DNA of 64,000 bases. Source: Bemisia tabaci (Eukaryota > Arthropoda > Insecta > Hemiptera > Aleyrodidae). The notes under the pieces were generated by a model, which saw only the letters and a program-made list of their open reading frames with translations, did no database searches and was not told where the DNA came from. The stretch lies in the NCBI RefSeq assembly GCF_918797505.1, contig NC_092799.1, forward strand, positions 31,074,597-31,138,596, written 5' to 3'. Position 1 is the stretch's first letter. Every line of letters begins with the position of its first letter. Shown here piece after piece: positions 1,320-60,689 of the stretch. The position numbers and the translations under genes are program-made.

Positions 1320-1551
1320 TACTGGAAAAAAAAACACATTGGATCTAGAGTCCAGACTCTTGAAAACATTGACAAGAAAAAGGACTCTTGATTCAAGCAG
1401 ATGTAAGCTCAAATCAATAGGAAATCCGCTGAAATTTAAAGGCTTGGTTCTTGATTTAAGCTTAAATCTGATTGAATCAAGAGGATTTTTTCTTGTTAAT
1501 GTTTTTAAGAGTCTGGACTCTAAATCCAATGTGTGTTTTTTTTTTCCAGTG
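1320..1551. mobile_element. family A foldback MITE, copy A1
   Basis: Near-perfect palindrome. Arms begin (C/T)ACTGGAAAAA..CACATTGGATC and end ..CCAATGTG..TTCCAGTG. Flanked on both sides by AA. All family A copies share the inner motif GAACCAAGCCTCTTAATTT between arms of about 100 bp. Confidence 0.9.
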
Positions 1552-1814
1552 AAAAATTTATATTGGCCGTTTATACTGACTTCTGCCGCACTAAACGTAT
1601 TGCCATAGCGTTAAGTTCAGTATATCCTTTTGTAATAGAAAAAAATTAATAATCAACGAATATTTAACAAATCAGCCACTCTTCTCAAAAAAGAAAAAGT
1701 GTTAAAAATTTCCAAGAGATATCCGGTTAGGTTCCCTCCTTGAAATTGGAAAAACAGTCGGAGATTTTGAGACGCTGCAATGAAAATACTCATTGTATGA
1801 CTTTAGCCACCAAT

Positions 1815-2069
1815 ACTGCCGTGCTAAGGAAGGAACGCCGTATGAGCCTTCATGCGTTGCCAAATTTCCATTTATAAAAAGCACATTTCCTGGGAAACTT
1901 ATGATTATTTTTCTTCTAATTTTTCAGATAATTTTGTTTGCAATTCCACCCTGAGTTCCTGAAAATTTCAAGGAAAAATGTTTATAACTTTCCTCAAATA
2001 TAGACATTTTATTGAAGGAAATTTGGCAACTCGCGAATGTTCATACGGCGTTCTTCCTTAGCACGGCAG
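1815..2069. mobile_element. family G inverted-repeat element, copy G1
   Basis: Ends CTGCCGTGCTAAGGAAG.ACGCCGTATGA and its inverse TCATACGGCGTTCTTCCTTAGCACGGCAG, then GTTGCCAAATTTCC inside. AATA on both sides. Confidence 0.8.
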
Positions 2070-2621
2070 AATACACCCCAATTTCAGTGAGTTTTTGTGA
2101 GTTTGAAAGCTTGAAAGGACAGTTTCGATCCATCTGGAATCCGAGGACAGAAGATAATTCAAGTTTGAGAATGACGAATCTCCAGCCGAATCCGCGTGAA
2201 AATGTTCCGGGCAGAATTTTTAACAATTTCGAAGAGGAAACGTCATCGCCCTAAAAGCAAAGTTTTCCGGGTGTAGTCTCAGACTTTATCAGCGGGACAG
2301 ATTTTTGCCTTCGTTGTGCTCCACTTAGCGCTTTGTCAGGCCCGACGCCTCCGAAGGTTTCGCCACAAAGGTCTTCTATATCTCTGTCAACCTACCGAAT
2401 GCCGAATGCGTATGAGAAAAATTCCCACCAAGCCTATTAATCAAAAGACGAATCGCAGCTCAGCCGTTGCCAACGCTAAGTTACAACCGAATGCTCGGAA
2501 CGCTCGCAAGCGCATCATGAATTCCTAGTCGCGCACGGCAAGTGTTTTTTCTAGCTCCGCGCTGCTTCTTTTCTGCACTCTCTCGCCCACGCTTGTCAAA
2601 TAGAACGAGTTTCGCGTTCTA

Positions 2622-2854
2622 CACTGGGAAAAAAAAACACATTGGATCTAGAGTGCAGACTCTTAAAAACATCGACAAGAAAAAATACTCTTGATTCAAT
2701 CAGATTTAAGCTTAAATCAAGAACCAAGCTTCTTAATTTTAGCGGATTTCCTTTTGATTTAAGCTAAAATCTGATTGAATCAAGAGTCCTTTTTCTTGTC
2801 AATGTTTTCAAGAGTCTGGACTCTAGATCCAATGTGTTTATTTTTTTTCCAGTG
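2622..2854. mobile_element. family A foldback MITE, copy A2
   Basis: Full-length copy, CACTGGG...CCAGTG, flanked by TA on both sides. Confidence 0.92.
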
Positions 2855-4191
2855 TATTTTTTAAGAGATAGGTATATGTGACCGTCCTCGGGCAATTGCA
2901 TGTCAGTTTTAAAAGGAAACAACAAATTTAAAAAAAAAAAAACTCAAAATTTAGGAGGTAAGTATAAGAAAGCGCTCAGACCAAAAATCGCATTTTGAGA
3001 AGACGGCTTCAAAATTTTGGATTTATATTTCATTCACGTAAATTACAAAAATCAACAACAAAAAATCTCTCATTCGAGGATAAAGTGTCTTGAACATGAA
3101 CGTTTTTATGCCAAAAGAAACTATACTCCACGAAATCTCTATTCTTACACTGATAATATAAAATACTAAAATGATAGCATATATTAAATATGATTTGATA
3201 CATATATAATATTAAATATGAAAATATTTGTGTTCTCGTGTCACTTTTGGTTAATATACGAAGTGATAAACACAGACCAACGCAAATTTTGTGTTGAATT
3301 TTGCACTGTTAGTGGTGAATGTAGCGTAGGAAACATTGGGGAAACTGGGAAACCCCTGAGTCAAGCGAGGGCTTGGACGGGTTATTTTGTGTTTTACTTC
3401 CCGTGTCAACTAAACTTTTGTGTCGAGTTCTCTCTTTGTTATGAGTGCTTTTTACTATAAATCGGTCGATAGAAGAGGAATACGAAAGCCACGCCGTGCT
3501 GAGGACTCTCTTATATAGACACACACTTGCAGACCGTCTCTTTTCATTTCTTAGAATCGGACAGCAGATTTTGTTTTGAAATCGACAGAATTTAAGAACA
3601 TTTTGTAACGAAAATCGCCCAAAAATGCCAAACCGAAGTATGGACATTTTTTTTATCAGTCAGAAAAATTCTACTCTTTAAACGTGTTTCATTATAAGCT
3701 GTATAAAATTCGAATGAGATTTTTTCAGGATTAAAAATTGCTGGATCATCAGAAAACACTTCGCCACATCTAAGCGCAAGAAGGAACCGAACATGTTCGC
3801 CGAATATTTTTGAAGACACCACTGCTTTGCTCTTTCGAACTGGAAAATTTGCAGGTGTCTGAAATTCGATGAATTTCTTGTTTCAATTGAAATTGCTGAG
3901 CGAACCGAACACGATGATAATTTCGGTTCATAAATTGAACGATTATCGGAGGGAATATGACCAAATTACCTATCTGCTACAATACATACGTTTAAATAAG
4001 AAATGCCGCGTGATGACGCCGCAAGGCGGCAAATTTTTTCACTTTCAAATCCGTGATTTTGCAATTCCCTATACCAGAAAAAAATACTGAAAAAAACCGA
4101 GAACACAGCTCATTCAGAACTTATAAACAGTTTTCGTGCAAGGTCTCCGTTTCCTCTTAAAAAATACACTGAATAATCTTGCGTTGGATTA
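2855..4191. other. no gene seen
   Basis: AT-rich sequence between repeats A2 and C. A few short ORFs, none recognisable. Confidence 0.5.
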
Positions 4192-4429
4192 CACTGAGAA
4201 AAAACTATGGTTTATTAACCTATTAGAGGTAAATATGGAACACCTATAATAGTCGTAAATAAACTAATGATTCTCGGTCTGTGAACCATACTAAGGTCTC
4301 TGTACCTAATTAAGGTACCCCGTACCATAACTAAGGTATATGTGCTATTATTATATGTAGAGGTACTACTATTAGTGGTGTTCCATATTTACCTCTAATA
4401 GGTTTATAAGCCATAGTTTTTTCTCAGTG
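4192..4429. mobile_element. family C foldback element CACTGAG...CTCAGTG
   Basis: Arms CACTGAGAAAAAACTATGG and inverse, then CCTATTAGAGGTAAATATGG and inverse; centre with repeated TAAGGTA/CTAAGGT motifs. Architecture like family A (CACTGRG + A run) but different sequence; flanks TA / AT do not match. Confidence 0.8.
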
Positions 4430-6175
4430 ATAGTTATGAAGTATTTTTTTTAAATTTTCCTGAAACTTAGTCGCAATCTGATCTGTTATTTCAGGATAAA
4501 CATCGTTAACTTTGTTTTATTCGACAAAAAGTTTGACAACTTTGAATGTGCACATACCTCCCATGCGTATTCATGCGTTACTCCTTTTGGGGGTTGCCCG
4601 GCGCTCTGCTTGCAGAAAAGACAGCTTTTCTTAGGTATTTCAAAATCTGGTTTTCTATACCAATTTGACAAAATTCGCTCTCATTAAATTATTTGGATTG
4701 CATTTTGCAAAAACGAACCAGATGCAGTGCAATGATGCTAAGATTGTGCAACTCCATCCTTTGAAATAAAATTACTGATATCACGGAAAAATATGAAATG
4801 TGCATGGTGTTTTTTGTCTTAAATTTAAAGTTTTTAACGAGTTAATGGAAGCTGTCAATTGATAATCAGGTTTTTCTTCTAAGTCAAAAGAAGTTGCACA
4901 ATCTTAGCAACATTGCAATGCTCCCGGTTCTTTTTTGCAAACTGTACTACTTTTGTCTGATTTTTTTAAGTTTTTCCTCCCGCAGATGGTCAGAAAAGAG
5001 TTTTTTTTCCTTCGAATTTGAAGATTGGATCGGCGATCTAGCAACCACGCTGGCAACAGACAATTCATTTCAAACACCTCGTCTCATCCTTTTCTCATTT
5101 CCCTGTGTCGCTCCCGCGTTCTTTTCTCCACTTCTTAAACGCGCTACATTGCTGGAATTTATGAACATCCGTGTTACTCCTCAGTTCCCTTTGTAAAATG
5201 TCTCTAACCCTTAGCTTATATCTTGCCACAACATTTAAAGTTGAGAGAAACTTATAGAAACATCCTCACATCCGAACAGACTTTGGAACCCGCGTGTATT
5301 CTCTACGTTAAAAATAGCTCCCTGTGAGGACGGTAAAAGCAGAATTAAAATCTTTGGTTCCTAATGGAATAGACAGTTCGAGATCATAAAATACCACCTT
5401 GGCTCCTGTTCGATTTTTGTGAAAATTGATAACTGCACTGGGAAAAAAACACATTGGATCTAGAGTCTAGACTTTTAAAAACATGGACAAGAAAAAATAC
5501 TCGTGATTCAATTGAATTTTTTCTTAAATAAAGAACCAAGCCTCTTGAATTCGGCGGATTTCCTTTTGTTTCAAGCAAAAAATCCTATTGAATCAAGAGT
5601 ATTTTTTCTTGTCATTAAGAGTCTGGACTCTAGATCCAATATGTTTTTTTTCCAGTGTGGTGTTACGTTTTTCCTTGATACGGAAATGTATTTTCTCCGG
5701 GAGAGAAAATCAGACTTTCAACTCGAACTGTAATTTTAGGCTCTTCGTAATATTCGTATATGAATTTGATTCATCATTTTGTGTGACGTATCCAGCGCGA
5801 ACAGCACTTAAAGTCAACACATCAAGACTCTATTCTCCTTAATTCGCGTCGCGGTCGGACCAATATAAAACGCCTTCAATTGCGAATGATACTGTGCAAC
5901 ACTCCGAAGTTGAAATATTTGTATTCTTAGGTTGGAACCTAACTCGTGTGAATTGCTCTACCAAATAAGGCATAATAAATACTGTATATCAAGTTACCTC
6001 GCATACGTTAAGCTCATTTTTATCTGACAAAAATGTAAGCCTCACTAGATTAACAAAGAAATAATTATTATCATTATTAACGTAGCCAACGAAAGATGCT
6101 GACTTGAAGGAAAACTTGTCGAGCGCATTGGATGGGTATCGGGGGTATTTTAAGACGAGAAACTTGAATTTTTAG
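4430..6175. other. no gene seen
   Basis: Apart from A3, unstructured AT-rich DNA. The 100-residue plus ORF at 4894-5196 has no recognisable features. Confidence 0.5.
5436..5657. mobile_element. family A foldback MITE, copy A3
   Basis: Full-length with a small deletion in the right arm. Flanked by TG on both sides. Confidence 0.9.
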
Positions 6176-6506
6176 TCAAATTTGCAAAACTCCGTACTCC
6201 AGGATAGCAGAAGTGGCCCAAAATGCTATCTCGGCTCCTATTTTATCATTTGTATATCTCTGGCTGGTGGATGATACTTTTGCTGTCGCTATACTTGACA
6301 TCCTCAAGGATGAACACGGAGTTTTCAAACATTTTTTTCGGAGCTCTATTGGCTTGCTGTGCAATCTTGCGTTCAGATTTTTCATCCTCTTTAGTGACCT
6401 CGTCACTCAATCTCTCACCTATTCTACTATAGTATCCATTTAGTTCATCAGGTGAAACATCATTTTGGCAATCCTCAAGTTTTTCCTGTCCACTCAATTC
6501 ATTCAT
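6176..6506 (-). pseudogene. possible LINE-type ORF2 linker fragment
   Basis: Two overlapping minus frames. One contains NDVSPDELNGYYSRIGERLS, which resembles the conserved 'n.yFs.IG..L' segment between endonuclease and reverse transcriptase in Jockey/CR1-like LINEs. An indel is suggested around 6250-6300, where the frame quality switches. No reverse transcriptase motif and no poly-A tail could be tied to it. Confidence 0.35.
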
Positions 6507-6753
6507 GAAACACCGATTTTTCCTTGGGTTATTTTTAACTTTCCATATTTCTTTTTGATAATATTTTGTTTTTACTATTTCTTATCAGCGTGACGATAGC
6601 AAATGTTTGTATCTAACTCCTCGTTGCTCTTGTCACTTGACCAAAGTCTGAAAATTTTGTCCCGTTTTTGGATGTTACGAAGAATACATACAGTGATTCA
6701 AGGCTTCAGTAGTTCGTCTCTACCAGCTGGTTTCTTCTTTATACTTGATTTGA

Positions 6754-7009
6754 CAGGGTGTCTAGTCTGTCTAGCATCAGGATTTCCCCGATTCTATCAG
6801 GGTTTGAGGTCAATCAGAGTTTAATCCCGATTTCATCAGGTTTTGAAGAAAAATTGGTCGTGAAATCAGGATTTGAGAAAAGTCGGCCGTCCGACCAGAT
6901 TTTTTATCGAGTTATTTTTGTGAAGTTGAAGTTTATCCGCCAAAAATCAGGATTTGGAACCAGGATTTAGCAGTCAAAAATCAGGATTTCATCAGGACTT
7001 CCCCAAATG

Positions 7010-7059
<50 letters not shown>

Positions 7060-7069
7060 AGACACCCTG
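6754..7069. mobile_element. family F element F1, CAGGGTGTCTA ends, 5-bp duplication
   Basis: CAGGGTGTCTAGT...ACTAGACACCCTG, flanked by TTTGA on both sides. The interior has repeats of ATCAGGATTT type and an uninterrupted A run of about 47 next to the right end. Confidence 0.85.
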
Positions 7070-7074
7070 TTTGA

Positions 7075-9700
7075 AGCTAATATTCTCATTAATACACTTA
7101 AAGAAGAGCCTCCCTAAAAAATGGCCCTTTCGGGAACCGGGGATTTCATTCGTATGTGGCTTAAATGAAACCTTATGATGAGACAAGCCTCCAGTAAAAA
7201 TTTTAGCTTGAGTATATGTCTTGTTTCCGAGATACAGCGTTGCAAAGTTGGCATATTTGAGCTTTAAAATTCTCATATTTTTATGGATTTTCTTCCAAAA
7301 ACCAACTTCAAAAATGACTTTACAATACTTACACGAGGTGCACACGATAAATTATAATATAAAAAGTCTCCAGTAAGAATTTTGACTCATGCGTAAGCCT
7401 TGTTTTGGCAGTACAACGTTGCTAAGTTTACATTTTTCAGCTTTAAAAAGCTCATTTTTTAAAGTTTCTCATTCACAAACCGCTATTACTGAAGATCGAA
7501 CTGTATTTTGGGGCATAGAATCAACAATTAGTGATACTCGTAGATGCATAGTATAATTTATAAAAGGATACGATAATACAGTGTTGCAAAGTTTTCAACT
7601 TGTATCTGGGAAAATGTCTATTTTGTGTTATTTTATTGAAGACAAGATTGAACAATCGTTGATAAGTGATATTGTGAAACAAAGAAATGTGGAGGACTTT
7701 TGTCAATCCTAGGTGAAAATTGGAATTAAAATGGCACTGTTGCCAATTTTATTTAAGTTTCTCTTAACATTCCATTATAAAATAAGTTTAAAATAAGGAT
7801 ACTTCCAATAATTGTCTGATTTTAAAACGTAATCCAAGTGAATTTATGGCATACAATGAATGGCTCAGCATCAGTGTTGCTTTCAAAATCTAAAAAATTC
7901 TACCTTGCCTTGGTTGTCAATTTTACTTTTTTTTAGGCAGAATGCAAAAACGAACATAAACTATGGAAACGCTCCAGTTTTTTGAGTACAAATAAATCTT
8001 GATACAGACAATACATTCATTGTTCCTTAAAGAATAGAATATCTTCGACTTAAGAATTACAAATGATGAGAAAATTAAATAAAAAAAATAAATTAAATAA
8101 ATAAATCTATAGAAAAAGAAATTAAAAGAATAAAATACTTAAAATTATTAAAATATTGTTGCATGGATTTGTCAAAAATTATTATTTCGGCATAGCTACT
8201 AACTATTTTTTCATTAATAAGTTGTTAAAGTTCCATTTTTGTTGAGGGTTGTCCCCATAGTATTAAGACCTCTGTGTCACAGTGACAGCATTCCGAAGAG
8301 AATAGGACCAGGCTATTGTCATGTTTCATACTTGTATTTCAAAATGGATTTAAGCATTCACATTATGATCTCGGCACTGGATGTAAATTCTTGGTAGCAT
8401 TCGCTGACCCCTCCATTCTGATAAAAAATACATCCATCTCCCAGTGAAATATATCTGGAAAAAAGTTGCATTTTCTCAATACGCAACGGTGCAGTGTCTT
8501 GGCAGTGCCAATCATAACAAGCTCGTATATGTATAGAGCATGTTGAAAACATATCTTTGATCCAGATGCCTCAAAATAATTGAGATACTTGGTAAAAGTA
8601 AAAAATCGGCAACATGTTGAGGTACTTGCTATATATTTGAAGGCAAGACTATACTCACGTATCAATCGAAAAAAATATTTTCACGGATATTCATAAATAA
8701 ATATAAAAAAAATCACAAAAGACTAAACAAATTACCAAAAAAAAATTAAACAAAATAAAAAAAAGTAAAAAAATTAAATTAGAAGCATCTTTATTTTAAA
8801 ATCATTTTATTATTTTTTGTTTGAAAAGAATTATGAATAAACTTGGCAGCAGTATTTTTTCCAAAACCAATCGTTACCTGGGACTGACATCAGCCCTTGA
8901 TATTTTGCCTTGATACGAGTTAAGATACCCATTGAAGTCGTGTTCAACAAGAAAAAATCATAATCCATACAGAGTTCAAAGTTTTAAGCATGGCAACGCT
9001 GTATCACCACCGGTCAAAGAATTCTTCTTCAAATACAAACATTCATCTACAGATGACATAAATGGTTGATTTCCTGCCTCAAATCGTGATTAAATTCTAC
9101 GAAAGTAGCTTCTTAAACACAGAACTCAAAAATATAGACATTTTTAAAGCTCAAATATATAAACTTTGCAACCCTGTATCATTAAAACTATACTTGCATT
9201 TTGAGTTAAATTTTAACAAAAGCCTTAATCTATCATAAAATTGCATCTAAACCCCAAAAGCATATCTTTTAGCGGTCACTAAGTTCGTTTTTAAGTTAAG
9301 AAACTTGATAAAATGAACATTTTTTATAGGTTTTTATGTCAACTTTGCAACGTTGTTTTAACAGAATTAGTAGTATTAATGTTTCAATTGAAATATGCAT
9401 TCGATAATAATACTAACATTTGATAAAATGTCACAAAATATCATAAAACATCCAATTGAATCGTTCTGAGAAAATAAGATACCTGAGAATATGAGAATTT
9501 TAAAGCTCAAATATGCCAACTTTGCAACGCTGTATCTCGGAAACTAGACGTATACTCAAGCTAAAATTTTTACTGGAGGCTTACCTCATCATAAGGTTTC
9601 ATTTAAGCCACAAACGAACGAAATCCCCGGGTTCCCGAAAAGGGGCCAAAAAAGGCCCTTTTTTAGGGAGGCTCTTTTCTATAGCTACGTTTATATCAGT
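7075..9700. repeat. 2.6-kb inverted structure made of ~176-bp degenerate units
   Basis: The outermost about 200 bp at each side (7090-7290 and 9485-9685) are inverted copies (AGAGCCTCCCTAAAAAATGG / inverse). Inwards, the core TTTGCAACGYTGTATC recurs in plus orientation near 8993, 9167, 9345 and 9522, and inverted near 7231, 7411, 7575 and 7729. Orientation changes somewhere around 8.0-8.9 kb. No ORF of note. Confidence 0.75.
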
Positions 9701-10091
9701 AAGTTTATATGCTCATATTATATCAGTTTATAATAGCATTTTTTATGGTCGGTTAAAATACATATGATAGATAAAATGAGATGTACAAATGTACAACCTT
9801 ACACTTAAACATTTAAGGTATTAAATAGCCCGCGTTTCGGAGGCCTCATTGCTTCTTCATCAGGGCATAGATAATATCAGTTTATATAAGATATATCGGT
9901 TTACATGCAGATTTGAACTTCTCGTCAAAGCTTCACGCATGTAGCCATAAAAAAGTGTTATTGAACACAAGCTGATACCTACAATGAAATTTTGACACGA
10001 GAAATCGGACGAATCGATCGGAGAGGAGACCACCGATGGAAGGTTGAATCTCGCATCGCGACACTAGAAAGAGTCATGACGTCACTCAGCG

Positions 10092-10332: not shown

Positions 10333-10340
10333 AGGTGGCG

Positions 10341-10511: not shown

Positions 10512-10594
10512 GATGGGCGTGGGCGCTATCCCGGCAACCGGCAACACAGCCGCGTTTTCCCTGTCATTGTTGATTTTCAAAGCGAAGTGAATAG

Positions 10595-11118: not shown

Positions 11119-11355
11119 CACTGGAAAAAAAAACACATTGGATCTAGAGGCCAGACTCTTTAAAAACAATCGACAAGAAAAAATTCTACTTGTATTCAAT
11201 CAGATTTAAGCTTAAATCAAGAACCAAGCCTGGTGAATTATTTCCTTTTGATTTAAGCTTAAAGTCTGATTGGAAATCAAGAGTACCTTTTTCTTGTCAA
11301 TGTTTTCAAGCGTCTGTACTCACGAATCCCAATGTGTTTCTTTATTTACCAGTTG
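11119..11355. mobile_element. family A foldback MITE, copy A4
   Basis: More diverged copy with several single-base insertions. Flanked by CG on both sides if the inserted T in the right end (CCAGTTG) is allowed. Confidence 0.85.
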
Positions 11356-13819: not shown

Positions 13820-14062
13820 CACTGGAAAAAAAAAAAAAAAAAAAAAAAAAAACACATTGGATCTAGAGTCCAGACTCTTGAAAACATAGGCAAGCAAAAG
13901 TACTCATGATTCAATCAGAATCTAGCTTAAATCAAGAACCAAGCCTCTTCATTTAAGCGGATTTCGTTTTGATTCAAGCAAAAATCCTATTGAATAAAGA
14001 GTATTTTCTCTTGTCAACGTTTTCAAACTGGACTCTAGATTCAATGTGTTTCTTTTCCAGTG
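13820..14062. mobile_element. family A foldback MITE, copy A5
   Basis: Full-length with the left-arm A run expanded to about 27. Flanked by TG on both sides. Confidence 0.9.
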
Positions 14063-14720: not shown

Positions 14721-14726
14721 CACTGG

Positions 14727-14795
<69 letters not shown>

Positions 14796-15005
14796 ACAGT
14801 GGATCTCGAGTCCAGACTCTTGAAACATTGACAAGAAAAAATACTCTGATTCAATCGGATTTTTGCTTGAATCAAAACAAAATCCGCTTAAACTAAGAGG
14901 CTTGGCTCTTGATTAAAGCTAGATTCTGATTGAATCAAGAGTACTTTTTCCCGTCGATGTTTTTAAGAGTCTGGACTCTAGATCCAATGTGGTTTTTTTC
15001 CAGTG
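14721..15005. mobile_element. family A foldback MITE, copy A6 with long poly-A
   Basis: The left-arm A run is expanded to about 67 bases while the right-arm T run stays short. Flanked by TA on both sides. Confidence 0.9.
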
Positions 15006-17397: not shown

Positions 17398-17629
17398 CAC
17401 AGGAAAAAAAACACATTGGATATTTAGTCCTGACTCTTAAAAAAACATCGACAAAAAAAAAAATACTCTTGATTCAATCAGATGTAAGCTTAAATCAAGA
17501 ACCAAGCCTCTTAATTTGAGCGGATTTCCTTTTGATTTAAGCTTAAATCTGATTGAATCAAGAGTCCTTTTTCTTGTCAATGTTTTCAAGAGTCTGGACT
17601 CTAGATCCAATGTGTTTTTTTCCCCAGTG
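17398..17629. mobile_element. family A foldback MITE, copy A7
   Basis: Left end mutated to CACAGG. Flanked by AT on both sides. Confidence 0.9.
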
Positions 17630-20449: not shown

Positions 20450-20479
20450 ATTGCCATTACGATTTTTGAAGGCGAAATC

Positions 20480-22029: not shown

Positions 22030-22605
22030 TTTGTTTAATGTTCTTAATGGCCAAAGTCGGCAGAGTCCAAAATGGACATCGGCCAAATTCCCACCAACCC
22101 AAACCTGACACTGGAAAAAGAAAAAACACATTGTATCTAGAGTCAAGACTTTTGAAAACATTGACAAGAAGAAGGACTCTTGATTCAATCGGATTTTTGC
22201 TTGAATCAAAACGAAATCCGCTTAAATTAAGAGGCTTGGTTCTTGATTTAAGCTAGATTCTGATTGAATCAAGAGTAATTTTTCTTGTCGATGTTCTTAA
22301 GAGTCTGGATTTTAGATCCAATGTGTTTTTTCCAGTGGACAATATCATGATCATATATCTCGGAATAATTTGTTTAATATTCTTCAAGAACTTAATATGT
22401 TGAAAATATGTTTTCACCTCTCCGTTTTTTAGGGCAGGTACATACTCAAGTCGACAGAGTCCAAAATGGACATCGGCCAAATTCCCACCAACCCAATCCT
22501 GACAATATCATGATCATATCCCGGAATAATTATTATTATATTCTTCAAGAACCTAATGCATCGGAAATATGTTTTCACCTCTCCGTTTTTTAGGGCAGGT
22601 TCGTG
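22030..22605 (+). repeat. local direct duplication, interrupted by A8
   Basis: The unit CAGAGTCCAAAATGGACATCGGCCAAATTCCCACCAACCC occurs at about 22062 and 22455. The unit AATATCATGATCATAT..ATGTTTTCACCTCTCCGTTTTTTAGGGCAGGT occurs at about 22340-22440 and 22505-22600. Confidence 0.85.
22109..22337. mobile_element. family A foldback MITE, copy A8 (with empty-site evidence)
   Basis: Flanked by GA on both sides and inserted in one unit of a local tandem duplication. The uninterrupted unit near 22490-22515 preserves the pre-insertion sequence with a single GA. Confidence 0.95.
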
Positions 22606-23703: not shown

Positions 23704-23932
23704 CACTGGAAAAAAAAACACATTGGATCTAGAGTCCAGACTCGTAAAAACATCGACAAGAAAAAGGACTCTTGATTCAATCAGAATCTAGCTTAAATCA
23801 AGAACCAAGCCTCTTAATTTAAGCGGATTTCGTTTTGATTCAAGCAAAAATCCGATTGAATCAAGAGTATTTTTTCTTGTCAATGTTTTCAAGAGTCTGG
23901 GCTCTAGATCCAATGTGCTTTTTTTTCCAGTG
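23704..23932. mobile_element. family A foldback MITE, copy A9
   Basis: Full-length, flanked by CA on both sides. Confidence 0.92.
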
Positions 23933-25012: not shown

Positions 25013-26008
25013 CAGGGTGATCCAAAAGTCCCTTCCACCCCCTCTAACTTTTTACCTAATTGAGGTAAAGATTTGAAACTTGGGGGATATTCCTAGGTCA
25101 AAGGGAGCTACTTTTTGGCCCCCCTAAAATTTTCAGGGGGCCCCCCTTGGGGGGCAACGGCCCCCAACTTTTAATTTTCAAATGGGAAGACCCCCTTTGT
25201 GATAGCTCGTTCGAAAGAGCATAAAAAAAGAAAACTTTTCGCGCAAACCCGAAGTCAATAACTCAAACCGTTTCAAAATGGCGGCCGGTTAAAGTTCAAA
25301 ATGGCCGAAAATTCACACCAGGTTATTTGTCGATGGATTTGCGCGAAAATCGGTATGTAGGAGTATTTTGACACGAGAAAAACGAATTTGACGTTAGATT
25401 TTCAAAAAAACCGAAATTTCCAAAATGGCCGCCGGTTAAAGTTTAAAATGGCCGAAAATTGTCACCTCGGTTTTTTGCTGATGGATTTGCCTTAAACTTG
25501 GAATTTGAGAGTATTTTGGCATAAGATAAACAAATTTGAACTTAGATTTCAAAAAAATCAATTTTTTGTCATTTTGAACTTTAACCGGCGGCCATTTTGG
25601 AAATTTCGGTTTTTTTGAAAATCTAACGTCAAATTCGTTTTTCTCGTGTCAAAATACCCCTACATACCGATTTTCGCGCAAATCCATCGACAAATAACCG
25701 GTGTGAATTTTCGGCCATTTTGAACTTTAACCGGCCGCCATTTTGAAACGGTTTGAGTTATTGACTTCGGGTTTGCGCGAAAAGTTTTCTTTTTTTATGC
25801 TCTTTCGAACGAGCTATCACAAAGGGGGTCTTCCCATTTGAAAATTAAAAGTTGGGGGCCGTTGCCCCCCCAAGGGGGGCCCCCCTGAAAATTTTAGGGG
25901 GGCCAAAAAGTAGCTCCCTTTGACCTAGGAATATCCCCCAAGTTTCAAATCTTTACCTCAATTAGGTAAAAAGTTAGAGGGGGTGGAAGGGACTTTTGGA
26001 TCACCCTG
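25013..26008. mobile_element. 996-bp mariner-ended near-perfect hairpin
   Basis: Ends CAGGGTGATCCAAAAGTC...GACTTTTGGATCACCCTG, flanked by TA on both sides: the Tc1/mariner signature. Arms of about 438 bp (25013-25450 and 25570-26008) are nearly identical in inverted order around a loop of about 120 bp. Each arm also contains two related direct units with AAAATGGCCG and TTAAAGTTCAAAATGG motifs. No transposase. Confidence 0.92.
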
Positions 26009-28870: not shown

Positions 28871-29199
28871 TGGTGCGCCGGGGAAATTCTGAATTCAACA
28901 GATTCGCCAACATCCCGAGTGCACCGCGTGTGCCGGACATGCACGCGTCTGACCTCACCCCAGCTGCTCGAAACGCCAATGGAAATCTTATGAGCTTTAT
29001 GTCTTGCGCAGGTTGCAACTTGCTTATTTACTTACTAAACCTAGTTATTCACTTATGTACGTAATGAGAAGATACCTAGGTATTATGCGGATACATTTCT
29101 TCTAATTTACTGAATTACCTTTCGGCTTACGTCATCTTCAGATCAGTATGAAAAATCTTGAGCCTATGTATTCACATTTCGAAACTTTACATCACAAAT

Positions 29200-29434
29200 C
29201 ACGAGGGGAAAAAAACTCATTGGATCTAGAGTCCAGACTCTTAGAAACATCGACAAGAAAAAATACTCTTGATCCAATCGGATTTTTGCTTAAATCAAGA
29301 ACCAAGCCTCTTAATTTGAGCGGATTTCCTTTTGATTTAAGCTTAAATCTGATTGAATCAGGAGTCCTTTTTCTTGTCAATGTTTTCAAGAGTCTGGACT
29401 CTAGATCCAATGTGTTTTTTTTTTTTTCCCAGTG
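29200..29434. mobile_element. family A foldback MITE, copy A10
   Basis: Left end decayed (CACGAGGGG). Flanks AT and AA do not match exactly. Body typical of the family. Confidence 0.88.
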
Positions 29435-30742: not shown

Positions 30743-31089
30743 TCATTCCGGCGTTATCAGGATAAAGACCGACTGTCCATTCCGCAGAACGTGGTTGACG
30801 TTTGTTAGAGAGTGGACATCCATTCGCGTGTTGCGGCCGTCTGTAATGTGGACCTTGTTGACTAGTTTCCTTAGCTGGTCCTGCAGCAGAGCTATAAGCG
30901 GTACTATAATTAGAACCAGTTTCGGCACTGGAGCGTCCTTAAATGGGACTAAAAAGATGATCGTTTTTCCGGCTCCCGTTGGGAGACGAATGCAGATGCT
31001 TCTTCCAGTTTCCAGAAGCTCCATGCATCTCACTTGTACTTCCGTCAAAGAAATGATGTCTGCATTCAGGCATTTTCGCTCTCTCCAAC
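30743..31089 (-). pseudogene. RecQ-like helicase ATPase fragment, truncated
   Basis: Acceptor TTCTGTGCAG, then GT-TGG-AGA (phase 1 in). The frame holds a Q-like region (ADIISLTEVQVRCMELLETG), Walker A RLPTGAGKT, motif Ia LIIVPLIALLQDQ (compare RecQ-type VISPLxSLMxDQ) and then SVFILITPE, which matches the stretch just before motif II in RecQ helicases. The frame stops at TGA straight after ITPE. The DEAH box and the whole second RecA-like domain are absent here and I could not find them downstream. It therefore cannot encode an active helicase as it stands. Together with the exons at 31.4-32.9 kb it looks like one decayed multi-exon gene, possibly carried by a mobile element. Confidence 0.55.
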
Positions 31090-31381
31090 CTGCACAGAAT
31101 ATAATCACACACATTCTTTACCAATCGCTTTCGTGCTCCATGCTGGATACTTTGAAGCCCCATTCCATCGAACGCGAGGGGGGGGGGGGGATATGGAAAG
31201 GGCCCCTACGTGAGAAGAAGGAATGCGGGAGTTCAGAATCGGCAATACCCTCTCATTTAATGATATTTGTTTCGTAGCCCACCGTCCATCAATTTTCGAA
31301 TGCGAGGAGCCACAGTTTTGAGAGTGCAAATCGCACGGCAAGAGATACACACTGCTTTAATAGATGCTTCTACTCACCCGT

Positions 31382-43287: not shown

Positions 43288-43527
43288 CTTAAATTTAAAG
43301 TGGAAGGTGTGACGTTGAGTTGCAGTCTTAGTGTTTTCAGTCTGAAGTTCCTCGTCTCGCGAGCTATGTTGTCGGGCGTTTGGGTCTCCCGGTCGCAGAC
43401 GCTGGCGTCGACGGTCGGAACCACCGGAACTCCGGATTTGGAGCCGCTCTCCGATACGTTGCTCCCGCCGTTGACGAAGTTCAGTTGCGACTGAGAGGAA
43501 CTTACGATCTGAACGTTGTTTGATTGC
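43288..43527 (-). CDS. 5-HT2: 5-HT2-type serotonin receptor, third intracellular loop exon 2
   Basis: Fifth recognised exon (residues 278-357). The acceptor TTAACAG is followed by G, which joins the AG left by the previous exon to give Arg; then CAA-TCA-AAC. It ends AAT-TTA-AG at a strong GTGAGT donor (phase 2). The peptide is Ser/Asn-rich at first, then basic (ARETRNFRLKTLRLQLNV), consistent with the membrane-proximal part of a long third loop. Both flanking phases match their neighbours, which is the main evidence. The donor sits beside a palindromic transposon remnant that ends near 43250. Confidence 0.88.
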
Positions 43528-44114
43528 CTGTTAACATAATCCATGTATGAATTGCCATAGTTCTACGACCAAAGTCCGAACCAATCCTGATCAAAGTCAA
43601 AACAAGCGGGAAAGTTCTAATACTGTCGTATTAGAAAAGCGCTCAGGTGTTAGTAAATGTATTTAGTGAAGAAAGGAAGTATAAACTCCGTCGACTTGGC
43701 TGGGGAATGGAAATAAAACATCAGCTGACAGCAAACAAAGGTTACCAAGGAAACCGTAAACGTGTTTTTTCGTTTCCCGAAAATGATAGCCACCGTTGAG
43801 CTCATCAGGCGCGTTTTTTTTTAGGCTTCTTTTATTTTCAACGATCACATTCGATAAGAATTACACTACCGCTAAGGAAATTTCTTATAGACAAACGATC
43901 GTAACTACCCGCGCATTACGTTAAAAGCATAAAATGCAGTTTTCACAGCTTTATTTATTTTGAAAATGGACCCCCCCCCCCCCCAAAAAAAAGCCTACAC
44001 ATCGATGAGCTGGTGCGCCATTTAAACGAATTAGCACTAGTATACTAGTATTCTAGAGGCAAGTCGAAATCAAAAAGCGCTGCCTATCGACCGAGCGCTT
44101 AAAATATAGGAGAA

Positions 44115-50333: not shown

Positions 50334-50549
50334 CACTGGTAAAAAAAAACCTCTTGGACCAGTGCCGCGGTGCATTGACTTGAGAGTGCAGTTTCTTGTC
50401 GCCGGATTTAAGAGTCTTGAACTCTTGTTTCAAGCGGATTTTGCATTGATTCAATTCAAAATCCGCTTGAAACAAGAGTCCAGACTCTTAAATCCGGCGA
50501 CAAGAAACTGCACTCTTGAACCAAGAGGTTTTTTTTTTTTTTACCAGTG
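50334..50549. mobile_element. family A-related foldback element with a different interior
   Basis: CACTGGTAAAA...TTTACCAGTG palindrome of 216 bp, flanked by TA. It shares the terminal bases, A/T run and fold architecture with family A, and a TCCAGACTCTTAAA motif, but most of the arm differs (CCGGCGACAAGAAACTGCAC). A sister subfamily. Confidence 0.85.
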
Positions 50550-52309: not shown

Positions 52310-52464
52310 CTTTTTCCGGAGTAATTGCACTGTGAGTGCGTAAGTAACTACCATGATGAGCATTGGAATGTAGAACGCCACTAATGAGCCGAAAACAAAG
52401 AATGCACGATTGTTGATAACGCATTCTCGATCGTCAGGCATTATGTTGCTCGGATTTGAAACCC
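52310..52464 (-). CDS. 5-HT2: 5-HT2-type serotonin receptor, second extracellular loop and TM5 exon
   Basis: Third recognised exon (residues 162-212). It starts after TGTATACAG with GG, which completes the Gly codon left by the previous exon, and ends at AAA-AAG before a GTGAAT donor (phase 0). It reads [20 protein letters not shown], a segment typical of 5-HT2 receptors. C175 is the second-loop cysteine expected to pair with C94. TM5 runs about 180-207 with G186, S187, A190 and P194 (5.42, 5.43, 5.46 and 5.50). The exon ends in QLLRKK, where the third intracellular loop begins. Without the splice site the frame would run into intron sequence. Confidence 0.95.
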
Positions 52465-52811
52465 CTGTATACAGAAGAAAAATATCAAATTGAATTAAGA
52501 GAATGAATAACGCACCATAAAACGCACATTTATGTTATGGTTTGATTCCGAAAATGGTACACGAAAAAAGACAACATGTGCCAACCTCAAACAAGTTAAT
52601 TTCATCTCGTTGCAGTTTATTAGTCCATGACCTATCCCAATCGCACTATTTTTTTTTTTTTTTTACACAGAAATTAGATTAATTCATGGTTTTACTAATT
52701 TTATGATGATTTTACTTTGCGGGGAGGGGAAGGTTGAACGTTGAATAGCTTCACGGAAGTATTTACCAATTAACACGATCTGGTTTCAAAATCTGAAAAT
52801 CCAATCAAAAT

Positions 52812-53036
52812 TCCAACTATTCAACTATCAGCTTGCTTGGGTACTCAGGAAAGGCGCTGTTTGAAGAACGACCATGAATACGACCCTAAGTTGGCGTTAG
52901 TCCATCTTTTTCCCCTTGTCTATGGGAACCACCCATTTCAATCATTAGGATCGCTCCATATCCATATGTCCTCTTTGTCCATCAATTCCAACTATCAGCC
53001 TGCTGGGCTACTTAGGAAAGGAGCTGTTTGAAGCAC
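52812..53036 (+). repeat. pair of ~50-bp direct repeats
   Basis: CAACTATCAGCTTGCTTGGG..AGGAAAGGCGCTGTTTGAAG (52822) and CAACTATCAGCCTGCTGGGC..AGGAAAGGAGCTGTTTGAAG (52988). Confidence 0.8.
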
Positions 53037-53509
53037 GACCCGACCTGAAATTGAAGGATGGTCCGTCAGTCGGTCGTGGCGGGGAGACTCGAAGGAAGGG
53101 AAACTTTTCGGACGAACGAATCCGCTCAGGTGGAAATATGCAGTGAAGTTTTATCAAAGTGGAAATCCTGTCATGCAGAAAAAGCACCTGTTGCTCGTGC
53201 TAATTGCTCTGCTTTATGCAGATATTAATGCCTCGGGGAGCCGAGCCGAATGCGAGGATTCCGAAACTTATGAACTCTCACATCAAACCTGGCTGCTCTT
53301 TCATGACTTACCCGCTTTCAGCCCGTTTCTTCAGTAAGGATATCTTCGTATTTGGAAGATTGAATTGCCTCCGCTTGTGCAAACGACCGTGTGCGCGAAG
53401 GCTTTCAACCATACTTGCTCTGTTTTTACTCGGTTTAATTGCTGCAGTCTGTGCGGAAGCTTCCTAATTATTGTAGTCCGAAGATTACATTTAATAATAC
53501 GCATCAAGT

Positions 53510-53690
53510 GAGAAAGCTGAAAATACGCAATTAATAAAACCCAAGACGTTTTGACCCACAACTGAGTCATTTTCAGTCGGGAACAATAAAAATTTAAAAA
53601 AAAAAACTGAAAAAGACTCAGTTTTGAGTCGAAACGTCTCGGGTTTTATTAATAGTGTATTCTTAGCCTTCTTTCCCGTTTTTCCTCCCT
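53510..53690. mobile_element. palindromic element J2, short
   Basis: AATAAAACCCAAGACGTTTTGACCC..CTGAGTC..TTTTCAGTCGGG and inverse. Same motif set as J1 with little interior. Confidence 0.7.
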
Positions 53691-53723
53691 GTTTTTTCCA
53701 CTGTTATCATGTCTTGGGCTGCT

Positions 53724-53949
53724 CACTGGAAAAAAACACATTGGATCTAGAGTCCAGAATCTTAAAAACATCGACAGGAAAAAATACTCTTGATTCAATC
53801 GGATTTTTGCTTAAGTCAAGAACCAAGCCTCTTAATTTGAGCGGATTTCCTTTTGATTTAAGCAAAAATCTGATTGAATCAAGAGTATTTTTTCTTGTCA
53901 ATGTTTTCAAGAGTCTGGACTCTAGATCCAATGTGTTTTTTTTCCAGTG
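53724..53949. mobile_element. family A foldback MITE, copy A11, beside receptor TM3-TM4 exon donor
   Basis: Full-length. Its end is 22 bp from the donor of the TM3-TM4 exon. Flanking dinucleotides CT/CA differ by one base. Confidence 0.92.
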
Positions 53950-53971
53950 CAGTGTGGTAGTGGAGACTAAC

Positions 53972-54199
53972 CTAAATATGTGACAGAGCCGCTGACGCAG
54001 AGCGAGAGAACCCAGACGAGAGAGATCTTGATGCCGACGAGACGTTTGGTGGAGTAGGTGTGCCTCGTCTTGAGGGGGTTCCGGATGCCGAGGTAGCGGC
54101 CCAGACTGATGCAGCACATGTGCATGATGGACGCCGAACATGCCAGCACGTCGCAAGTCACGTACACATTGCACCAGACAATGTTCAGCGGCCAGTAAC
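53972..54199 (-). CDS. 5-HT2: 5-HT2-type serotonin receptor, TM3-TM4 exon
   Basis: Second recognised exon (residues 86-160). The acceptor TTTTTTTGCAG precedes GT-TAC-TGG and the donor is GTTAGT; phases 1 in, 1 out. TM3 carries C94 (C3.25, the disulphide cysteine) and, seven residues on, D101 (D3.32), the amine-binding aspartate of biogenic amine receptors, within [11 protein letters not shown]. The usual DRY at the end of TM3 reads GRY here (G118-R119-Y120) in [11 protein letters not shown]. From memory, insect 5-HT2 receptors often share this change, but I cannot verify that here. TM4 follows with W147 (W4.50 position). The exon is 228 bp, a multiple of three with equal phases, so skipping it would keep frame while removing TM3-TM4. 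Foldback MITEs lie 22 bp beyond its donor and about 105 bp before its acceptor. Confidence 0.95.
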
Positions 54200-54303
54200 C
54201 TGCAAAAAAATCATAAATGTGATGTCTCGCGTACTTGGAGAGGAAACGTTTTTTGTCGTGTTCCCGGCAGTATTTTAAACGAGAATGGGCCACTTTTAAA
54301 CTT

Positions 54304-54531
54304 CTCTGGAAAATAAAACACATTGGATCTAGAGTCCAGACTCTTGAAAACATTGACAAGAAAAAGGACTCTTGATTCAAACAGATTTAAGCTTAAATCA
54401 TGAACCAAGCCTCTTAATTTGAGCGAATTTCCTTTTGATTTAAGCTTAAATCTGATCGAATCAAGAGTCCTTTTTCTTGTCAATGTTTTCAAGAGTCTAG
54501 ACTCTAGATCCAATGTGGTTTTTTTCCAGCG
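54304..54531. mobile_element. family A foldback MITE, copy A12, upstream of receptor TM3-TM4 exon
   Basis: Full-length body with decayed termini (CTCTGG / CCAGCG). It lies about 105 bp before the TM3-TM4 exon acceptor in transcript order. Confidence 0.9.
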
Positions 54532-57500
54532 TATTATGGCACGGGAGAACATTTTGTAAGATGAGTCGTTCTATCCAACCCTTACGCACTAGGATGCTAC
54601 ACAATATTCAACATGGCTGACGCTTCCGCACGCAAATCGATTTGTAAGGAAGCACCATGGTGTCAATGGTCTTTATCAACTCAAAAAAATGTAAATCCAT
54701 ACACAGTGGTTGATGAAATCCCGTCTCGTCACGCATGCTTAGGCGGGTTGGCGTTGGCCATGTTGAGTATTGCGTAGCATCCAAGACGGTAAGGTTTGGG
54801 ATAAAACGACTTCTTTTAAGAAATGTTCAACTGTGCCAGACTATCGGTTTTCAAAGCGAGATGCTCGGAAAACACATATTCTTCAGGCAGATTGTGTAGT
54901 TAGGAGTGTATTTCAAGCTTTCCCTTTGCGCTCATCGTGATTTTTAAGCCATTTTCTATCAGCTTCAACAAAATCACACTCAATCTAAAATTTGCAACAC
55001 GACAATATTTTTTGCAAATAAAATGGCTGTTATCTAAGTGGAATCCTTAAGTCATTCAAATGAGATCAGTCAAATTATGAAGAAAACTTGCAAATATGTT
55101 AACTCATCAGTTTTGAGAATGCTCGCTTGGAACTCAAATCAAGCAACGGACGATAAATTATGGCCCCTTTTACGTAAGGGCGTATCTTTATTTTCGCGTG
55201 AGCCCCAAAAAGCATAGAGTCACACGGAGCTCGCTTATGGCTCGCCTGTAAACTGAGATATGCCCTTTATATGCCTGAGGAGTGACGATATGTTCGAAAT
55301 TCGGCAACCGGCCTCCCGCCAAATTATGCAAAACAAAGTTGACTTTATTACTTGCATGTGTTTACCGCGGAGAACTAGCGATAAGCACAATGGGGACGTC
55401 TCGTAACTTTATGAAAGAGACTGTCAAAGCTTACGGAAGACTTTATGTCAGGTGAAACAATATAATAGGCACCGGATTTTAGGTTAAAATTCACGTCTCA
55501 ACACATCATCTGCCTCCAGGCTCCTATTGCCCGTCTCGGAAGAGTTAATGAACCTTACTCGTCAAAAGTAATATGTGTAGCTTAAAACTCTGTTCGTCAT
55601 GTTTACCTATCATTCTATCAAAGTCTTTTCAGCTAATTTCAAAAATAGAAATCAAAACAGTTTTTAAAGAAAATCGTAAATCAGTGAAAATTAAATGAAA
55701 TGTAAATAATCCATCAAATTTGAGCAGGCTCTAAGTGTAGCATCATGAAAGGGTTAATTTTTACTAGCTCCGAATATATTTCAGCAGTGTGACTTCGGAA
55801 ATAAATACTTGGAAGGGGGATTGCATTGATTTGCCGTTAAAAAATACTACAGGTATATCAATGGAAATATTCTATGATCTTGAAAACTTTCAGGCTGATT
55901 TGGGTCTACCTTGACATTTGTCAAACCCTCGAATAAATATTTACCGTTATATTATGTATTTTTTGCAATGGCAAGTTATTCTAATCTCCGGCAAGAGCCT
56001 CTTTTCAAGTTGAATTGCTTTCGGCTTTTGCCGAAAGTGTCCTTTTCTATAATACTATGTTACAAGCCTTGTTACGCTCCTTTTCAGGCGGGTTTTTTTT
56101 TTTTTTTTTTTTTTTTATTTATTCAAATTGGGTCGAAAAATCGGTATCACAGTTTGCAAACAAGAATACTAGAACTGTGAAATCCTGCAATGTGAATCAT
56201 AATCAATTAATTTCACTTTCGAGCCAATGTAGGTAGCGTTCCATTTAGATCCAACAATTTTGAGCCCTGAACACGATGTATCAGAACTTTTACTGCAGGT
56301 TGTATCTGAAAAAACGTTTCGCGAATTGCAACCATATCAAACATTCATGAGTTGGGAGCAGTTTAACATGCTCGAACTTTTAGAGCTACTATACTTGTAA
56401 AACACTCCATTAATTAGTTTCTACCGCAGTTTATGTTCGACTCGGAGTATTTTACTCTGAACGGTTCTATGTACATAGATATGTTTTATATTTTATTTTT
56501 GGTGTTTGTAGAGGATTAATTGGAACTTCTTTTAGTATATTTTTTCGTTCTGAACATGTTGGATCTTTTTTATCAAATAGATTTTTTACCCTACACTCAT
56601 TTCAGTCCTTTTTCCCGCAGAAGAAATATTATTCATCGCATGATTCAACGCATCTGCTTTTGTTTAATGTCCAACAACGAGGAAAAGAATATCTTGAGGA
56701 AGGAGATCATTACGGTGAGAAATTAGAAGCGACCCGTCCCAGGAGGCATCATCACTAATTGATCGTCGGGTTAAGATTAACGATTCCAGTTTTTTGTTGA
56801 AATGCTACTTTTATTTTTTCCTCGTCCTCGTACAACTAATAACTTTTTTTCCTCTGAATCTTTTCAATTAAATCACTAATTAGAGCGTGCAATCAAATCC
56901 CAAAATAATTAAATCCAGCATTCTCTATAATTTCTACTTTGAACTATTCAATTCAGTCTTAATGATTCCAATTCTACAATTTCCGCTTAATATCTGTAAA
57001 GAAGCAAAGAAAATTAGATTTTTTTTTTTTTTATAATTCATGGTTGTAAGGAGATATTCTGAAGAATCGTTTTACAGTATGTGCGTCGTAAGTTCAGGTG
57101 TTATTATAATACACAGTGAGTAACCATAATTAAGTTTTTTACATCCCATCAAGTAAGATTTTTTTTATTAAAGGATTTATTCACGTTTTATATATATACG
57201 TCTCTTCCATTGACCATCTCTTGAAAGCGGACTGTGGCGGTTTTCTATCGAATGATAAATCTATTTGAATGAGCTAGGGCATTTTTCAAAGCGGAGGGAC
57301 TCCTCTTATTACTGCTTCTGTGTAAAAAATTTCTTTACTAAATTACTTTAAAACGCATTAAAACAAATTTAGATTCCATTGATCAAACGAAAAGATTGAA
57401 ACTCCTCACGACTCTTTTTCCTTATCTCTCTTTTTATGGCTTCTTTATGATTGGAAAGTATCAGTTCAACGCTTACTTCATACGTTGATTGTATAGTTAA

Positions 57501-58045
57501 AATCCTAAAATTTTAAGATGTGGTGAAAAGACCCCCCCCCCCCCCAAAAAAAAAAAAAAAAAACTGGAGCTGAAGAAGAATTTTATTTTTTCATCACGAG
57601 AAATAGATGTGTGTTCCTCATTCTCTGCCTTTCATGGGTTTCTACAGTCACTCGGCTGAAGCCTTAGCAAGCTCAGGGAAGAATGTTAAATATTATACAA
57701 CCCATCAGGGGTTAAGTCACTCTAGTAAAAGTCTGAATCTATGGGAAAACGTGCCTGTCTTGTCACCGACACACCTTCGAGCTTCATTTTTTATGACGCG
57801 ATGTAAGGCCATGGTATGCCAAAGAGTCCGTCTATTTGCATTGGATGCCTAGCCACGTTGTCTTGCTAAGTTAAAATTGTAACAGCGTGGAAATCTACAT
57901 GATTCTCATAAGGTTGATTGTAAAGTCTGCGAGCCAGGATCGTAAGTTCGTTAGTTCGGATATAAAAATTTTACCTAAATTTAGGTATCCTTTTTTGATT
58001 TCGCCTGGAAACAGCCTAGTTGCGGCTTTATGCGCGAAAATTGCG
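54532..58045. other. receptor intron, no exon seen
   Basis: Part of the 6.6-kb intron between the TM1-TM2 and TM3-TM4 exons. Poly-T at about 56094-56115 and a C/A tract at 57532-57563. Confidence 0.5.
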
Positions 58046-58238
58046 CACTGGAAAAAAAAAACACACTGGATCTAGAGTCCAGACTCAAAACATTGACAAG
58101 AAAAAATACTCTTGATTCAATCGGATTTTTGCTTGAATCAAAACTAAATCTGCTTAAATTAAGAGGTTTGGTCCTTGATTTAAGCTAGATTCTGATTGAA
58201 TCAAGAGTACTCTCTTGTCGATGTTTTTTTTTCCAATG
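58046..58238. mobile_element. family A foldback MITE, copy A13, right arm shortened
   Basis: The right arm lacks the segment complementary to the TCTAGAGTCCAGACTC part. Flanked by CG on both sides even so. Confidence 0.9.
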
Positions 58239-60458
58239 CGGTGTTGGGTACAGAAAGAGCAATTCTTGCTTGCGTTGTTGCAGAATCACCACTGCCAGTA
58301 TACCTATATTATAGAGTGGGAAGTTTCGGGTGAATCCTCTGAAAGGTTCAGTTTTCAGCATTGTAAAATCATAAAGAAAATTCCGCAAAAGTTTTTTTTA
58401 TATATCCCGTGCATTTGCTCCAATCATAGTAACTGTGAAACGTTAACGGAGAGCCTGAGACACCGCAACCAAGAAATTCCCTTCCTGCACCCAGCGTTTT
58501 AATTGTTTGGAAATCTCTGATCTTGCTGTGTTCGTTTCTCTGCAAACAATTCACCACCTGCAATACCGCATTTTTATCCCGGGGGTATAAATTTGCGTTT
58601 GCTGATTTAGCATTCCAATATCGAAAGTTGTTTTCTCTTTAAATCCAATTTCTATCGCATAATTCTCCAGAGAAAGAGAGAAAAGAATCTCAGTGGAATT
58701 CACTCTAATTGGCTCATAACTCCCATTGTCACGAATTCTCTCTCGCGAGAGTGTAAAACGGAAAAGGTCTTATTGCTTAACGGTATGATGCAACTTTTGC
58801 CGTACTTTTATGTCCTGACTGTCCGGAAGCCTTCCAACCGGATGCCAAAATCTGATAGCGCTTGCAATGTTAATCAAAATTAAATTTGAGATCTTCCAAT
58901 GATGATCGCACTTGTGGTTTCAACGAATTCCTTTACGCTTACATTCGATTACAATGTTCACAACGCGTTTTATATTTATAATAACAAGCATGATGGGGGA
59001 GTCAAAAACCCTCTGATTACATCCCCTTGTAGATTGCTTCCTCCCTTCACAAATATATGTGCGGGCGTTGCGGAAACTTTTCAACCGAAAGTAATTGAAA
59101 GCGGAGCAGGGACTTCATTTCCACGGTTTTCCTCATTATAAGTCACTCTTTTTCAAGTTCAGAAGAGCCGGCTAAATATTTTATTTTCACCCTTTCACCT
59201 TTTAGCACCTCTTCAGCCTCCTCGAGGGTTAATTTTCAGGACGACGAGGATAACAAGTCGAAAAATTGGACTTTGAACTTTTGACGGATTATACTCTAAA
59301 GTATCCTAAAGAGTAAGTTGCAAGCAATGTAGTTTATTTTTGTGCAAGGGTGTGAAGTTGCATTACGAAAACAAAATTTTGCGCCATGAAAATAGCAGAT
59401 CAGAATTTTTAATGGCTTTTTCGCTTACTTATATTATTGAACTGAATATTTCAAATTATATTATTGAACGGAGAATTTAAAATTTGTGGATGTCACTTCT
59501 TACTTTGGTAGTTATGTAGCTTATTTAAAAACTCTAACATCTTTAATTTTAGTCCCTTAATATTTTTGCAAGTTACAAGACGTAAATCCCAGAGATCCTG
59601 CCGAAGTTGTGCTTCCAAGCGCTTCGTCGCACCAAAATTCCAACTTAGAGTTGGGTAAGTTTTAGCCGGTTGGCTCCTCTTTTTTAATCCTCCTGATGTA
59701 TTTTAAACAAAAAGAGCCAAACCGGCACGACCTAATACCCGTTTGTTTCGCGGTAGATCAGCAAAAAAATACAGGAAGTGTGTCATTCAATAATGTTTCT
59801 AGTTTCTCTAAGATCTTCGAAACTTCCAAATTTTTCTTGTGCAGTTTTGTTCCTAGGCAAAATATTTCCACGGATTTGGGTGTTTCCTTGGAAATTTTAA
59901 AACCACCTAATAGTGCGACACGCGCAGACACACAAAAAAAACTGTGTTCAGTAATAATAATGCTACATTTATCGGAAGGGTAGAGGATTTCTAGATTTCC
60001 GCCTTTTCTAGGATGTTTAAGTAAATGATCTGTAGTTATTTATTTTTGGTGTTTTAAGTTTAAGTCATTGAATAGATTAATAATTTAAGTTCCTTCACGT
60101 TCAATTTCAGCATTTTCGATGTTTTCTATGCTACCCGAAGTCTGTAAACTTTGTAATATGAACTATATTGTGTGATAAGGGATGATCTCCAGATTTGTTT
60201 GATCTGTTCATTCTGATTCTTTCGTAATGGACCTGTGAACGAGGTGTGTTTTTAAGCACAGCTCAACACATTTCTTCTTCATTTCACAAAGACAACGAAT
60301 CACAAAAGTAGAAGTCTTGAAACAATCCCTAAGCTAAAGGCAAATGAACATGCGTTCAATTGCTAGTACAAAGTACGTAATTATGGTACAATGAAACTTT
60401 GAAACTTGGCTCGTTTTCTTCAGGATTTGATTGAAGAATCTGATTGCTTAACATTCCA
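58239..60458. other. receptor intron, no exon seen
   Basis: Rest of the same intron; no repeat family recognised and no alternative exon supportable. Confidence 0.5.
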
Positions 60459-60689
60459 CACTGGAAAAAAAAAAACACATTGGATCTAGAGTCCAGACTC
60501 CTGAAAACATTGACAAGAAAAATGACTCTTGATTCAATCAGATCTAAGCTTAAATCAAAAGGAAATATCCGCTCAAATTAAGAGGTTTGGTTCTTGACTT
60601 AAGCTTAAATCTGATTGAATCAAGAGTATTTTTTCTTGTCGATGTTTTTAAGAGTCTGGACTCTAGATCCAATGTGGTTTTTTCCAGTG
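60459..60689. mobile_element. family A foldback MITE, copy A14
   Basis: Full-length, flanked by CA on both sides. About 74 bp beyond the donor of the receptor TM1-TM2 exon. Confidence 0.92.

Follow-up and report, generated by a model that had tools for sequence, protein, structure and literature searches.

A high-copy palindromic MITE family with variable 2-bp target duplications in Bemisia tabaci, probably of the CACTA/CMC group

We analyzed a 64,000-bp stretch of the Bemisia tabaci genome (NC_092799.1, positions 31,074,597 to 31,138,596; hereafter the window, in whose coordinates elements are given), which holds 14 copies of a short palindromic repeat, family A, and one element of a related family, B. 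Family A inserts with a 2-bp target site duplication (TSD) of variable sequence. Its copies are probably non-autonomous palindromic miniature inverted-repeat transposable elements (MITEs) of the CACTA/EnSpm (CMC) group, moved in trans by a CMC transposase. The ends, the 2-bp duplication and its variable sequence, a preference for pyrimidine-purine (YR) steps at the flanks and one insertion facing its empty site were observed directly. Membership in CACTA/CMC is drawn from the ends and the duplication, not from a transposase.

All 15 elements listed in a first-pass annotation of the window were located at their positions; they are 193-285 bp long and are given here without a strand. Identical dinucleotides were read by eye on both sides of 12 of the 15, a recount that agrees with the earlier tally and its list: AA at 1320..1551 (left end TACTGG), TA at 2622..2854, TG at 5436..5657, CG at 11119..11355, TG at 13820..14062, TA at 14721..15005, AT at 17398..17629 (left end CACAGG), GA at 22109..22337, CA at 23704..23932, TA at 50334..50549, CG at 58046..58238 (193 bp, one arm partly lost, right end CCAATG) and CA at 60459..60689. 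The CG pair of the 11,119 copy holds if its right end is CCAGTTG, the right boundary being uncertain by 1-2 bases, and the automatic flank rules did not match this copy. The element at 50334..50549 belongs to the different but related family B, with the terminal inverted repeats (TIRs) CACTGGTAAAAAAAAACCTCTTGGACC / CACTGGTAAAAAAAAACCTCTTGG. The three misses have one of two bases in common: CT/CA at 53724..53949, TT/TA at 54304..54531 (ends CTCTGG/CCAGCG) and AT/AA at 29199..29434, whose left end is degenerate. A scripted tally also gave 12/15, but it included the last of these (AA/AA if the start is 29199) and excluded the 11,119 element. The chance of a 2-bp match was 0.071 per copy, so that at least 12 of 15 has P ~6e-12.

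The first-pass annotation had all elements ending exactly in CACTGG...CCAGTG. This was overstated: both ends are exact in 9/15, and six elements deviate at one or both ends (1,320; 11,119; 17,398; 29,19x; 54,304; 58,046). In the window, CACTGGAAAA is exact at 17 of the 28 ends of family A copies and, at no more than one mismatch, occurs 35 times vs 7.35 expected.

We extended the tally to 363,641 bp of sampled DNA, comprising the window plus further loci from the same genome, some of them overlapping. A profile search gave 30 merged matches, 27 of them near full length. Under an automatic rule, 21 copies had both ends within one mismatch, and the 2-bp flanks agreed in 16 of them. Misplaced by this rule were the 11,119 copy, the copies with long poly-A (13,820; 14,721) and two that are interrupted by other insertions. 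Reading by hand, with three further end pairs, gave agreement in 24/29 pairs with nine dinucleotides (CA 5, TA 4, TG 4, AA 3, CG 2, TT 2, CT 2, AT 1, GA 1); this tally leaves out a further two copies whose ends are degenerate and whose flanks likewise agree (GT, TT). All five non-agreeing pairs differ by one base only.

The element at 22109..22337 lies in a locally repeated stretch, and a paralogous site without the element is present in the window at 22448..22600 (plus strand), with a single GA. The joined flanks minus one GA aligned to this site with 90% identity over 155 bp, ungapped at the junction; a single 2-base gap occurs 13 bases further right. On removal of 0 to 4 bases the join scored 227, 229, 234, 227 and 223. 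Since the maximum fell at exactly 2, insertion took place at a GA and duplicated 2 bp. Of the 24 elements tested for an empty site in the sampled DNA, this one alone gave a valid hit; a second reported span was discounted, as by its coordinates it was a flank matching its own place. A longer duplication enclosing the ends, or hairpin repeats spread other than by transposition, might be considered given that one copy (23704..23932), folded as single-stranded DNA, forms a near-perfect hairpin (-77.9 kcal/mol, z -17.4). However, flanks agreed at 3-6 bp in 0/21 rule-selected copies and at 3-8 bp in 0/15 window elements, and comparison with the empty site gives a clean duplication of 2 bp. A longer duplication was therefore rejected, and the chance of either possibility is negligible. 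The 2-bp duplication of variable sequence is real, and the earlier claim of 2 bp rather than more stands.

The genome-wide counts cover the 610-Mb assembly of 151 contigs, the window lying on contig C7. CACTGGAAAA occurs 36,174 times vs 1,624 for its reversed control, and the longer exact end TAGATCCAATGTGT...TTTTCCAGTG 12,804 times (control 0). A YR step is next to 7,499 of these 12,804 exact ends (58.6%; background 22.5%) and TA to 3,183 (24.9%), roughly a fourfold excess over a background of 6.1%; both backgrounds were taken from the sampled DNA, and TA was the one single dinucleotide counted genome-wide. YR steps make up 15 of the 24 agreeing pairs (P ~3e-5 at a background of 0.2247) and 9 of the 12 in the window; eight other copies counted apart gave 4/8, which is not significant alone. 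We also drew 16 end pairs, each forming one element, from the first 100 exact-end places listed. Both flanks were YR in 11, neither in three and one only in two, so that 14/16 were concordant (P 0.003). TA status, read by eye, was both in two, one only in three and neither in 11. There thus appears to be a target preference for pyrimidine-purine steps at the flanks.

The enrichment of TA raises the question of Tc1/mariner-type MITEs, in which TA would be the true target and the other dinucleotides would have arisen by decay. Tc1/mariner elements duplicate a TA target. However, TA is missing beside 75% of exact ends, 20 of the 24 agreeing pairs have a non-TA dinucleotide on both sides, and the empty site at 22,448-22,600 has GA. 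With TA in just 4/24 agreeing pairs, together with the GA empty site and the paired non-TA duplications, Tc1/mariner was rejected as very unlikely. The genome-wide counts likewise bear out the first-pass annotation that the duplication is not restricted to TA, and by target duplication Tc1/mariner, Harbinger, hAT and piggyBac do not fit, as it had stated.

Family A has the features of MITEs: short length, long TIRs, high copy number and similar copy lengths. A consensus built from 24 copies measures 228 bp, its arms agree at 101/115 alignment columns, and the mean Kimura two-parameter (K2P) distance to it is 0.076 (7.6%). Twenty systematically placed 10-kb samples (200 kb) contained 12 copies and one fragment, from which we infer a copy number of ~37,000; the window is denser, with 14 copies in 64 kb. 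Scaling from the CACTGGAAAA excess, with the share of exact ends in the window (17/28), gives ~28,000 if all of it is family A, a rough estimate because none of the first 8 listed genome-wide CACTGGAAAA sites was a family A end. The poly-A tract beside the left CACTGG is greatly expanded in two copies, at 13820-13850 and, very long, at 14721-14790, as though the TIR served as the seed of a microsatellite.

The 5'-CAC...GTG-3' termini and the short TSD of family A are those of CACTA/CMC elements (2-4 or 2-5 bp; 2 bp in the animal elements cited below). The papers cited here and below are represented by excerpts. CMC TSDs are given as 2-4 bp (PMC4482050), CMCT termini as mostly 5'-CA..TG-3' with TSDs of 2-5 bp (PMC12730594), and 2-bp direct repeats are described for animal TRC/CACTA elements (PMC1636069; PMC4298943). 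CAC...GTG ends together with 2-bp duplications have been described for animal CACTA/CMC elements and MITEs (PMC1636069, PMC6004678, PMC12730594). The first-pass annotation overlooked this group, and these elements weaken its idea that the mobilizing transposase may be unusual or undescribed. Among the closest systems are the CMC-NA_1 and CMC-NA_2 MITEs (PMC6004678), known from polydnaviruses and from the wasps that host them, compared here by description. SmTRC1-type animal TRC/CACTA (EnSpm) elements likewise have 2-bp direct repeats flanking the TIRs (7/14 copies there), but their TIRs begin CCC, whereas family A begins CACTGG and encodes nothing (PMC1636069). CNIRT6, a CACTA element of Cryptococcus, has TIRs beginning CACTG and a TSD of variable sequence; it differs in being fungal, about 7.5 kb long and flanked by 3-bp TSDs (PMC12810828).

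We searched the genome for the source transposase. Transposase_21 (PF02992) matched seven loci, five above the curated cut-off, with open frames of 691-978 aa; CACTA-type transposases are thus present in this genome. Six of the loci were extended outward (see below); between the seventh and its twin, 2 of 3,396 bases differ. DDE_Tnp_4 (PF13359) gave 103 matches, and no inverted CACTGG pair was present at the five of them viewed over 3.5-4.8 kb each. Ends with CACTGG...ACACATTGGA that then diverge from the MITE were found at 30 places, which by eye resembled family A variants with small indels, as judged from the six bases visible beyond the common part. One DDE_Tnp_4 element (L052, G000:C1:9781801-9786600) has a 681-aa frame and very long near-identical TIRs with an outer end of about AAAGAGGTCTGTGC. 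By count the 681-aa frame occurs in 16 of the 103 matches, so the element looks young.

The first-pass annotation had pointed to ISL2EU (PHIS) elements as a lead. Besides the 2-bp duplications, MITEs of this kind would be in keeping with DDE_Tnp_4 frames that adjoin other frames, as in ISL2EU, at two loci (L048, L051). We take the adjoining frames to be YqaJ-like; the stretches viewed at both loci stop short of the element ends. ISL2EU also has a 2-bp TSD, but its target is A|AT|T only, with AT duplicated, and its TIRs usually begin GG (PMC4482050), in conflict with the variable TSD and CAC ends of family A. Furthermore, AT accounts for 1/24 agreeing pairs, and the L052 DDE_Tnp_4 family has quite different long TIRs. 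Given the AT-only target and the GG ends, ISL2EU was excluded, and an origin from it is extremely unlikely.

Several points weigh against placing family A in CACTA/CMC. The animal CACTA TIRs described in the excerpts begin CCC (PMC1636069, PMC4298943), not CACTG, and CACT ends also occur outside CMC, as piggyBac elements with CACTAGA TIRs are described (PMC4298943). In the library of papers searched, no publication combined CACTGG with both 'target site duplication' and 'terminal inverted repeat'. Exact flank agreement is possible in at most 12/16 of the genome-wide end pairs, because four of them differ in YR or TA status. In six of the seven Transposase_21 loci, extended to 7.6-9.5 kb, there was no inverted CACTGG pair round the frame. 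Two of these loci (C6, C8) have a common right end, CCC, CCCTGCTAAAA inward, which resembles CCC-type animal CACTA; on the left side, the sequence at which their similarity breaks off does not match this right end. An autonomous element with CACTGG ends, the search for which the first-pass annotation had proposed, was not found among the loci examined (6 of the 7 Transposase_21 and 5 of the 103 DDE_Tnp_4 loci). The source transposase could have decayed or lie in the unread part of the genome.

The lack of an autonomous partner at these loci would also agree with a transposase from a different and perhaps undescribed superfamily, one that happened to use CAC ends and a 2-bp stagger with a preference for YR, and the YR preference is not mentioned in the excerpts of the CACTA descriptions compared. 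Since CAC...GTG ends with 2-bp duplications are already known, in the sources cited above, for animal CACTA/CMC elements and MITEs, we regard this as unlikely. Somewhat more doubtful is that an undescribed transposase lineage with CAC[T/G]G-poly(A) ends, a 2-bp stagger and a choice of pyrimidine-purine steps drives several MITE families in this insect. Most probably, family A adds a new family to a known kind of transposon and does not represent a new mechanism.

If family A belongs to CACTA/CMC, a CMC-type DDE transposase, supplied in trans, would bind the CACTGG-poly(A)-ACACATTGGA ends of the non-autonomous element (~228 bp, with two ~100-bp arms). It would cut the element out and insert it into a target whose strands are cut 2 bp apart, with a target choice that would favor pyrimidine-purine steps, and fill-in of the stagger would yield the 2-bp duplication. 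The mean divergence of 7.6% from the consensus may reflect a past amplification to tens of thousands of copies.

A scan of the sampled DNA for CAC...GTG pairs (at least 14/16 bases inverted, 2-bp flanks agreeing) gave 33 pairs vs 8 with the right flank shifted by 3. Eleven of the 33 were family A or B; some of the other 22 lie inside longer repeats, so the excess over the shifted control is modest. The best of the further CAC-ended families were CACTGAAAAAAAAGTT (L017, L022; flanks CG, TT), CACGGAGAAAAAAAC (L013, L014; CA, CA), CACTGAAAAAAAAATC (L019; TA) and CACTCCTTACTGCGCA (L014, L047; TA, TA), the last possibly TA-targeting. Short CAC-ended TIR elements with agreeing 2-bp flanks were thus noted at L013, L014, L017, L019, L022 and L047, including the CACGGAGAAAA, CACTGAAAAAAAA and CACTCCTTACTGCGCA families.

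Two family A copies outside the window are split by other elements. The copy at L018:6767-7365 (TSD CA) contains a nested element with the ends AGTCGTC...GACGACT and a 3-bp duplication, ATT; that at L022:3508-4614 (TSD CT) contains a retroposon-like insert of ~870 bp with a poly-T tract and a ~14-bp duplication. In the window, a large palindrome at 25080-25940, with arms of 184 bp at 98% identity (longer by eye), is another foldback element, and a DEAD-box helicase fragment (PF00270, E 5e-11) lies at 30746-31117 on the minus strand. Four conserved minus-strand segments between about 41,100 and 61,020 belong to a 5-HT2-type receptor gene of an insect, and a segment at about 43,290-43,560 is presumed to be a fifth. 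The 120 of 360 matches listed for the receptor query were 5-HT2-type and related receptors, almost exclusively of insects, at 47-80% identity. The family A copies at 53724-53949 and 54304-54531 closely bracket one conserved exon-like minus-strand segment of this gene, a putative exon.

Family A offers a clean and testable example of CACTA-like MITEs that have reached very high copy number in an insect. Its YR preference (59% vs 22%) provides a target rule for an element that duplicates 2 bp; the rule is absent from the excerpted CACTA descriptions compared, no search having been aimed at it. Tracing the source transposase should be easier with the other CAC-ended families of this genome.

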